This document shows positions 47,591 to 49,754 of a DNA stretch of 64,000 nucleotides, piece by piece. Under the pieces are notes generated by a model. That model had not been told where the DNA came from. It was given only the letters and a program-made list of their open reading frames with translations, and did not search any database. Position numbers and translations under genes: made by a program. Numbering within the stretch: the first letter of the stretch is position 1; the number at the start of each line of letters is the position of its first letter. Source of the stretch: Cryphonectria parasitica EP155 (taxonomy: Eukaryota > Ascomycota > Sordariomycetes > Diaporthales > Cryphonectriaceae); the NCBI RefSeq assembly GCF_011745365.1, contig NW_024468913.1, positions 2,046,001 to 2,110,000 of the forward strand. Reading direction: 5' to 3'.

Positions 47591-48454
47591 ATGGCTCCCA
47601 AGATTGCTGTTGTTTATGTAAGTAGCTATATCAACAGCTTCCTCGAGTGCTTGCTTATCTCTTGACAGCTTAGGTGAACAAAACAGCTAACCCATGTTGT
47701 CCTCTCCCATTAGTACTCCATGTATGGCCATGTCAAGACCATTGCTGAGGCTGAGATCAAGGGCATCGAGGCTGCTGGTGGTTCTGCCGACCTCTTCCAG
47801 TATGTATACTGTTCCTACAAGATACCATTTTCCCGTCTTCCTCTCTTCTTTCCCCTTCCATCTGCCCCCCCCCCCCCCAATATATTTCCAGCTTCACCTA
47901 GGAATCTATGAATGGCAAAACTGACGCAGGCCCTGTCTGCCTTGTCCTTTAGAATCCCAGAGACCCTCTCCGAGGAGGTCCTGGCCAAGATGCACGCCCC
48001 GCCTAAGCCCACCGACGTGAAGACGCTCACGGACCCGGCCACGCTCGTTGAGTACGATGCCTTCCTCCTCGGCATCCCCACACGCTACGGAAATTTCCCC
48101 GCCCAGTGGAAGGCGTTCTGGGACCACACGGGCGCCCAGTGGCAGACGGGTGCCTTTGCCGGCAAGCTGGCTGGCCTCTTCATCTCCACCGCCTCTCTCG
48201 GTGGCGGCCAGGAGTCGACCGCCATCGCTGCCATGTCCACCCTCGCCCACCACGGCATCGTCTACGTCCCATTGGGCTACTCCAAGACCTTTGCCCAGCT
48301 CACCAACCTCTCCGAGGTCCACGGCGGCTCCCCCTGGGGCGCTGGTACCTTTGCCGGCCCCGACGGCTCCCGCCAGCCCAGCGCGCTGGAGCTCGAGGTT
48401 GCTGAGATCCAGGGCAAGGCCTTCTATGAGACCGTGAGCAAGTTCTCCGGCTGA
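47591..48454 (+). CDS. WrbA/Pst2-type flavodoxin-like NAD(P)H:quinone oxidoreductase
   Basis: Three exons: 47591-47617, 47714-47799 and 47953-48454, giving 204 residues to the first stop. The protein begins [20 protein letters not shown], the FMN phosphate-binding loop of the flavodoxin fold. It continues with [39 protein letters not shown], the conserved [31 protein letters not shown] and [20 protein letters not shown]. It reduces quinones by two electrons and so limits oxidative stress; the family includes the minor allergen Alt a 7. Length to this stop equals the usual family length. Intron 2 (47800-47952) contains a 14-C run. The stop is TGA followed by CTA, and the frame continues as a coding-like tail (see next entry). 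Confidence 0.94.
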
Positions 48455-48628
48455 CTACATGGAAGTGATGAAAAGAAGAAGGAGGGGCAGGATGGGCAGC
48501 CTGCTGCCACCACTGCTGCGGCCAAGAAGCCCGACGTTAAGGCGACCGGGAACAATGGGCCAGCTAAGGAAGAGAAGAAGGAGAGTGAGGGGCCGTGTGG
48601 ACTGCCCAAGAAGTGTGCGCTCATGTGA
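48452..48628 (+). other. TGA-CTA read-through site and in-frame CaaX extension of the WrbA/Pst2 gene
   Basis: Seen directly: GGC-TGA-CTA at 48449-48457, then an in-frame open stretch to a TGA at 48626-48628, 57 codons. The tail begins LHGSDEKKKEGQDGQ, has AATTAAAKKPDVKATG in the middle, and ends ESEGPCGLPKKCALM. CALM is a CaaX box (Met at the end favours farnesylation), with two Lys before it and another Cys seven residues upstream of the CaaX Cys. Third positions are mostly G or C, as in coding DNA. UGA CUA is an established leaky stop context in fungi and animals. Alternatively an intron 48434-48490 (GTGAGC, a CTGAC branch, GGGCAG) would remove the stop in frame; its acceptor lacks a pyrimidine tract. 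Either route adds a lipid-anchor signal to the enzyme. Confidence 0.65.
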
Positions 48629-48809: not shown

Positions 48810-49754
48810 TCAGAGCTTTGCCTTGTCACCGCCCTCGTTAGGCGCCTTCGACAACACATCCTCCCACCAAGGCCACACGCTCGGCCCGTCCTGGGGCATC
48901 GTGCCCTCCATCACCGGATCCCTCTTCTCCACGAACCCCTTGACGCCCTCGACAAAGTCCGGCTTGCTGAACAGGTCGAACAGCACCTTGCTCTCCAGCA
49001 GGTGCGCCTCCTCAGGCGACGCCGGCCCGCGGTAGATCATATCCCGCATGACCACGGCACTCACCACGCTCGCGCTCCGCACCACGTCCTCGGCGATGGC
49101 CAGCGCCCGGGGCAACACAGCCGCCGGGTCCTCGACGAGGGTGAACAGCCCGTCCAGCAGCGGGGCGTCGGCGCGGCACACGGCGCCCGTGGTGGCGAGG
49201 TGCACGGCGCGCGAGGCGCCCAGCAGCCGCGGCAGGAAGAAGGAGCTGCAGCCCTCGAGCACGAGCCCGCGCCGCGCAAAGACGAAGCCGATGCGGGCCC
49301 GGCGGTGCGTCACGCGCACGGCGCACGGCAGCGTCATGGTCGCGCCCACCCCGACCGCGCTGCCGTTCACCGCCGCCACCACGGGCTTGTGGCACCGGAA
49401 GATGGCGAGGGACGCCCGCCCGCCGCCGTCGCGGTGCGTGTCGCGCGTGGCGCTTGAGAGGCGGTCTGCCTCGACGGATGCTGGCGACGCGGTTAGGTCC
49501 ATGCCGGCGCAGAAGATCTGGTTGGTCGGGTCGGAGCCTGTGAGGACGATGCAGCGCACGCGGGGGTCGGCGGAGAGGAGGTGAAAGGCGTGCTCTAGAG
49601 AGGTCATCATTGCTGTGTTGAAGGCATTTCTGGCGGCTGGGCGGTCGAGGATCACGAGGATGATGGGGGTTACCATGGGGGAGGAAGGAGGGTGGTGAGA
49701 GAATCTGATAGTAGGGAGCTTGAGGGTTTCATAGGAGGAGGGGAGGTCGGCCAT
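48810..49754 (-). CDS. Enoyl-CoA hydratase/isomerase (crotonase) family protein, PTS1
   Basis: Single exon, 314 residues from the ATG at 49754 (MADLPSSYETLKLPTIRFS); the frame is open 29 codons further up but that sequence is AT-rich leader. Crotonase features are ILDRPAARNAFNTAMMTSLE, the oxyanion-hole stretch IFCAGMDLTA, and KPVVAAVNGSAVGVGATMTL. The block GFVFARRGLVLEGCSSFFLP follows, in which the Glu of LEGCSS is in the place of a catalytic acid. The last three residues are AKL, a peroxisomal targeting signal of type 1. It therefore probably acts in peroxisomal beta-oxidation or a related acyl-CoA step; hydratase and isomerase activity cannot be told apart here. It converges on the WrbA gene: 181 bases lie between the CaaX-tail stop and this stop. 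Confidence 0.9.
   Translation of the reverse strand: MADLPSSYETLKLPTIRFSHHPPSSPMVTPIILVILDRPAARNAFNTAMMTSLEHAFHLLSADPRVRCIVLTGSDPTNQIFCAGMDLTASPASVEADRLSSATRDTHRDGGGRASLAIFRCHKPVVAAVNGSAVGVGATMTLPCAVRVTHRRARIGFVFARRGLVLEGCSSFFLPRLLGASRAVHLATTGAVCRADAPLLDGLFTLVEDPAAVLPRALAIAEDVVRSASVVSAVVMRDMIYRGPASPEEAHLLESKVLFDLFSKPDFVEGVKGFVEKRDPVMEGTMPQDGPSVWPWWEDVLSKAPNEGGDKAKL

Follow-up and report, generated by a model that had tools for sequence, protein, structure and literature searches.

Fungal glycolytic enzymes are reportedly dual-targeted by cryptic PTS1 peroxisomal signals, a finding attributed to Freitag (2012), and the CDC42 and OAS1 isoforms are said to show splice-dependent prenylation, in which the choice of mRNA end determines whether, or in what way, the protein is prenylated. 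According to Stiebler et al. (2014), cytosolic enzymes of fungi reach their cryptic PTS1 through read-through of UGA CU(A) or through alternative splicing; in Ustilago, CUA placed after UGA was all that efficient read-through required, and human cells are leaky at UGA CU as well (PMC4207609). Thus, the statement in an earlier note on the present DNA that UGA CUA permits stop read-through agrees with what has been shown in fungi (PMC4207609). The same note knew of no report in which read-through uncovers a CaaX box. This is too strong, given that Dunn et al. (2013) reported a predicted farnesyltransferase signal in the read-through extension of Drosophila Syx17 (PMC3840789). A search for prenylation sites has also been made in mammalian read-through extensions (PMC4359377). 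Among WrbA-type quinone reductases, Candida albicans Ycp4 is extended at its C-terminus by ~90 residues that close with a CAAX box; the plasma membrane was the location of GFP-Ycp4 and other Candida flavodoxin-like proteins, for which ubiquinone was proposed as substrate (PMC4556627). Ycp4 of S. cerevisiae appears beside Ras1 and Ras2 in a list of proteins that Erf2 S-acylates (PMC5364179).

The window analysed here is a stretch of 64,000 nucleotides from Cryphonectria parasitica EP155 (contig NW_024468913.1, positions 2,046,001 to 2,110,000 of the forward strand). On its forward strand lies a WrbA/Pst2 frame of 204 aa in three exons: exon 1 (47591-47617), the translation of which agrees with the database protein P0002, exon 2 (47714-47799) and exon 3 (47953-48454 including the stop codon, coding part 47953-48451, with a TIGR01755 match), separated by intron 1 (47618-47713, GTAAGT...TTAG) and intron 2 (47800-47952, GTATGT...TTAG). 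The public annotation is this short 204-aa form (P0002, 'flavo protein WrbA'; 100% identity over 81% of the query). The protein scored 194.1 bits against TIGR01755 (cut-off 132.5) and 204.2 bits against NF002999 (cut-off 141), and thereby passes the curated model for type IV NAD(P)H:quinone oxidoreductases. The nearest solved protein by sequence was S. cerevisiae Pst2 (5mp4; query residues 3-202, E 1.9e-85), and FMN binding, a tetrameric state and NAD(P)H-dependent quinone reduction are predicted from the similarity to the solved Pst2 and WrbA proteins. Only one WrbA gene was detected in the 43.8-Mb, 17-contig genome by six-frame protein search (E up to 10), and there is therefore no detected paralogue able to supply a CaaX form.

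The short frame ends with TGA (48452-48454) directly followed by CTA (48455-48457), so that the leaky-stop context UGA CU(A) of fungi (PMC4207609) is found at 48452-48457. The frame then stays open for 57 codons (48455-48625) and closes with ...SEGPCGLPKKCALM and a TGA at 48626-48628, the stop of the long form. The conserved end of this tail, EGPCGLPKKCALM (48587-48625), contains an upstream Cys (48596-48598), the basic residues KK and the CaaX box CALM, whose Cys (codon 48614-48616) is the fourth residue from the end of the reading frame and lies six residues downstream of the other Cys. The observation made in the earlier note was thereby confirmed as a whole: TGA CTA, the open 57-codon frame and an end reading CGLPKKCALM, with basic residues and a second upstream Cys, were all seen in the sequence; the sense codons end at 48625, and the end coordinate 48628 of the note takes in the final stop.

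The codon composition of the tail was coding-like only in part. The fraction of G or C at third positions (GC3) was 0.64 for the whole tail and 0.67 for 48491-48628, compared to 0.81 for the body, and every one of the first six codons past the TGA ended in A or T, which leaves the claim of G/C-rich third positions with little weight. Similarly, stop-to-stop stretches of at least 57 codons made up 14.5% of the 16,751 examined in 264 kb of genome (real coding frames included), and the openness by itself is therefore unremarkable; stretches of this length with a loosely defined CaaX end made up 0.16% of the same set. The purine content of 48455-48490 was 81%, unlike introns 1 and 2 (44% and 32%) and nearer to the Lys/Glu-rich tail (63%). 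Given that exon 3 of the body has 43% purines, this richness marks the tail and not coding as such. RNA structure 3' of the stop, sought as a read-through stimulator, was no stronger than in shuffled sequences (z -0.25). The convergent neighbour on the minus strand, from 48810 to about 49754, is an enoyl-CoA hydratase/isomerase (PF00378, 129.4 bits) with its stop ~180 bases past the end of the tail frame; it ends in AKL, a PTS1-type peroxisomal signal.

Three protein searches gave 193 homologues (two returned the best 120 of several thousand each and the third six matches), and the counts rest on the 158 listed homologues shorter than 300 aa, the 35 longer ones, mostly tandem WrbA by length, being excluded. 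Among these 158, which come from lists ranked with tail-bearing queries and do not give population frequencies, a Cys at position -4 was found in 54 and CGLP preceded it in all 54. Conservation of the CaaX end, which the earlier note had proposed to look for in orthologues, was thus found. Divided by source, the tail motif was present in 52/116 of the listed named or genome rows and in 2/42 of those known from metagenome-type sources only. Neighbouring positions were also constrained in 52 gap-free right-aligned ends, themselves picked by the motif, with Gly at -12 in 52/52 and Pro at -11 in 49/52, and the X residue of the CaaX box in these ends was Q (24), L (19) or M (9). Q and M at X favour farnesyl transfer and L favours geranylgeranyl transfer. 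The word CALM was absent from the main text of a yeast FTase screen (PMC10320760).

A 13-residue profile was built from 31 distinct relatives' ends, chosen for bearing the motif and excluding C. parasitica. The profile found the C. parasitica tail at E 2.9e-6, with the next best match at E 0.26 among 10,554 six-frame peptides from 264 kb. Given the conservation of motif and profile, the tail is a homologous protein end that was once, or is still, translated, and judged by its sequence it is not a product of chance. The argument of the earlier note that such a tail is unlikely by chance thus holds on the grounds of conservation and not on those of length. A homology search with the tail alone gave six matches, four of them tail-bearing, the query being too short for more. 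By genus name, the tail occurs in Sordariomycetes, Eurotiomycetes and Dothideomycetes, and in Penicillium, Aspergillus and Paecilomyces 19/19 listed rows were long, that is, carried the tail. Pattern scans of the viral_contigs and genome_contigs collections for relatives' DNA found no fungal WrbA locus; the sole match, L004, translated to an unrelated context and was discarded.

Other WrbA architectures were also present among the listed rows. Proteins of about 390-470 aa (P0003, P0004, P0125-P0149 and others) look like tandems of two WrbA domains; several of them bear the names of dinoflagellates (Symbiodinium, Durusdinium), and P0001 is from the mushroom Gymnopilus. The WrbA protein P0123 of the mushroom Daedaleopsis nitida is without the CaaX tail and has an N-terminal extension (MCFPGKRLKNN...) which, with a Cys beside the Met and basic residues, is possibly another lipid anchor.

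In a tree for which 77 proteins (30 of them long) were selected for breadth out of 123, long and short rows were interleaved, with 10 changes between the two forms, at least 5 of which were forced by well-supported branches, in an analysis whose bootstrap had not settled. This interleaving indicates that long and short rows represent the same orthologue. Both kinds were listed in genera such as Colletotrichum, Neonectria and Podospora, and when the bodies of 52 long and 94 short rows were compared, those of P0028 (long, 250 aa) and P0167 (short, 205 aa) were identical at 189/189 residues, followed by the pairs P0086/P0162 (Colletotrichum, 99.5%) and P0037/P0186 (Fusarium type, 98.4%). P0167, from Podospora aff. 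communis, has members in both JGI and Logan, and the source of P0028 is a JGI contig of 1,058 bases. P0028 is probably a transcript, judging from a frame that runs unbroken through the places where C. parasitica has its two introns. Where P0167 reads VAKAFGA-stop, P0028 reads VAKAFG|GIANG; the Ala and the stop are missing together, and therefore removal of a terminal intron fits this pair and simple read-through does not.

Concerning the relative abundance of the two forms, 1/33 of the metagenome-type rows beginning at the family N-terminus was long, which suggests that the short form is dominant in apparent transcripts, although the tail may be absent from some of the species concerned. All eight rows of the first listing from genera of the Diaporthales, C. 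parasitica included, were annotated as short, and given the case of C. parasitica itself a short annotation does not mean an absent tail. A Gly-Ala C-terminus was found in 27 short rows, many of them from Podospora-like genera; such a GA-stop end would follow if the DNA were GGTGCGTAAGT, in which the stop shares bases with the donors GTGCGT and GTAAGT. At the join of body and tail, the near-identical Fusarium-type rows P0011, P0016, P0019, P0022, P0027, P0037, P0056 and P0057 differed in their residues, and for this reason some published gene models of the tail are probably forced or wrong.

Two routes around the stop, together with the readings that the tail is a relic or a coincidence, have to be weighed, and the probabilities of the routes given here were weighed by hand, by inference. 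For C. parasitica itself, we give ribosomal read-through of UGA CUA about an even chance of being the bypass route. The tail is in frame and conserved, the stop has a leaky context that is infrequent in this genome (CTA follows 66 of 9,028 TGAs, 0.73%, counting both strands of 264 kb), and the public annotation is the short form; the purine content of 48455-48490 and the poor 3' half of the rival intron described below also favour this route. The interpretation of the earlier note was partly supported, namely as to the tail and the leaky context. Against read-through, the best long/short pair among relatives, P0028/P0167, looks like splicing of a terminal intron; the lack of unusual RNA structure after the stop, the short annotation of all eight Diaporthales rows and the single long row among 33 of metagenome type count on the same side. 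The earlier note had also pointed to an alternative intron at 48434-48490, which is indeed present as a candidate of 57 nt in phase 0 that removes the stop in frame, with a GTGAGC donor at 48434, a CTGAC branch site at 48451-48455 that contains the stop codon, and a CAG acceptor at 48488-48490. Its donor, branch motif (CTRAY) and acceptor (YAG) conform to the consensus known from Fusarium, from which the exon bases ACC ahead of the donor deviate (PMC5677156). Under this alternative, a minority of transcripts would lose 48434-48490 (or splice to AAG/GAG at 48475, 48478, 48481 or 48484, or to CAG at 48499, the other in-frame acceptors), the tail would replace VSKFSG-stop, retention of the intron would give the short enzyme, and TGA CTA would be a mere branch site. 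We rate this as a real possibility, though clearly below an even chance. An in-frame set of strong donor, CTRAY and YAG occurred at 0.16% of 24,933 random coding positions, and the candidate is therefore no everyday coincidence. The three long/short pairs with identical or near-identical bodies point the same way, as do P0045, P0016 and P0069, which lack the Val-x-Lys of the family after the same Thr (FYNT-KKEA, FYQT-AAPE and FYNT-AAES), suggesting, from protein sequence only, that the annotated junctions of these rows coincide with the 48434 donor. The PGK gene of the same genome (G000:C3:1938383-1939612 region, loci L025/L026) offers a parallel, in that its frame closes with ...SSK and a TAA that is itself part of a GTAAGT donor. 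Joined to an acceptor 103 nt further on, this donor could yield ...SSNL, which is PTS1-like; one of nine YAG acceptors (40-400 nt on, with the frame closing within the stretch read) gave a PTS1-like end, which may be due to chance. Other fungi have a cryptic peroxisomal PGK. For TIM, no TGA CTA stop was found on the matching frame of locus L029.

While the donor and branch site of the candidate intron are good, its 3' half is poor. The comparison was made with introns from a survey limited to strong donors, which gave 35 introns once one version of the candidate (48434-48499) was left out; some of the 35 may be false. Compared to the 19 of them that have a CTRAY site, the distance from branch site to AG was 36 nt versus a median of 15, with 2/19 at 35 nt or more, and the purine fraction of this segment was 0.84 versus a median of 0.38 and a highest value of 0.83. 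The intron would furthermore pass over five AGs, four of which (48475-48484) would yield in-frame products. Two ab initio intron sets, one with 7 introns and the other with several hundred mostly spurious ones, were dropped as comparison. The donor codons also argue against splicing: Val-Ser-Lys is kept in P0002, P0008 and P0051, the latter two from one species, but five close rows (P0005, P0013, P0032, P0038 and P0097) read Val-Ala-Lys, for which the codons GTNGCN make a poor donor, and the junctions deduced from Fusarium proteins vary between near-identical genes, as they would in forced gene models. Given that the leaky-stop context and the candidate intron share bases, the sequence alone cannot separate the two routes, and both could operate together. 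That the tail was expressed in ancestors and now lies behind a real stop, decaying or just lost, would be compatible with the short public annotation, the lower GC3 of the tail and the A/T-ending codons after the TGA; we consider it improbable, as the CaaX end is complete through its final residue, no frame break has occurred and the stop has a context leaky in fungi. Finally, frames that stay open for 57 codons past a stop are common, but a chance open frame or coding on the opposite strand is hardly credible. The chance frame is refuted by conservation of the motif, with a homologous end in 54 listed relatives and the profile match at E 2.9e-6, and antisense or neighbour coding was rejected as a source of this conservation since the frame of the convergent gene stops at 48810, outside the tail.

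Read-through thus being the preferred route in C. parasitica, the following mechanism is proposed. One single-copy WrbA/Pst2 gene would give two C-termini: a major product stopping at the TGA at 48452-48454, a soluble FMN-dependent NAD(P)H:quinone reductase, and a minor product with the 57-codon tail added, ending in EGPCGLPKKCALM, the stop being bypassed most likely by ribosomal read-through of UGA CUA. The Cys of the CaaX box would receive a prenyl group and the upstream Cys an acyl group, in the manner of Ras, by S-acylation, and the lipidated long enzyme would be held on a membrane, where it would reduce membrane quinones. Such a dual location with action on membrane ubiquinone, as suggested in the earlier note, would fit by analogy with the published Candida flavodoxin-like proteins (PMC4556627). 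Given that Pst1, Pst2 and Pst3 fusions are likewise found at the plasma membrane in Candida (PMC4556627), the tail may adjust membrane binding rather than bring it about. That one gene gives two forms with different C-termini seems very probable to us when the route is left aside; with read-through included as the route, the proposal might as easily be wrong as right. More tentatively, and somewhat short of even in our estimate, the locus may be one instance of a conserved fungal switch that exposes a Ras-like lipid anchor, through a terminal intron in many Pezizomycotina and through UGA CUA read-through in the Cryphonectria lineage.

If true, prenylation of a metabolic enzyme would depend on read-through; lipid anchors would join peroxisomal signals among the conditional C-terminal targeting signals of fungi, and membrane antioxidant defence by ubiquinone reduction would be tied to the efficiency of translation termination or splicing. 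There is also a warning for annotation, since gene models, the C. parasitica one among them, omit the CaaX end of a widespread enzyme. No description of two C-termini from one filamentous-fungal WrbA gene was found in a literature search that covered a minority of subscription papers, and no single fungal gene with a CaaX anchor dependent on stop bypass was found in the same literature. CaaX-tailed WrbA proteins, UGA CUA read-through and splice-dependent targeting are each already known, and one gene conditionally exposing a lipid anchor appears to be new. Like the C. parasitica WrbA, the glycolytic enzymes with cryptic PTS1 are cytosolic enzymes with a targeting signal past the stop, but their signal is a peroxisomal tripeptide and not a lipid anchor. 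Syx17 is a different protein, from an animal, and its signal is a prediction only, and CDC42 and OAS1 are animal genes, unlike a fungal metabolic enzyme with a retained intron or a leaky stop. S. cerevisiae Pst2 (5mp4) resembles the body and is a chain of 198 residues without the tail. Ycp4 is similar to the C. parasitica long form in being a WrbA-type quinone reductase with a C-terminal extension and a CAAX end. However, in the yeasts a separate gene encodes the CaaX form, with Pst1, Pst2 and Pst3 as paralogues, whereas in C. parasitica one gene would make both forms, and filamentous fungi would, if the proposal is true, do with one gene what yeasts do with separate genes (Pst and Ycp4).
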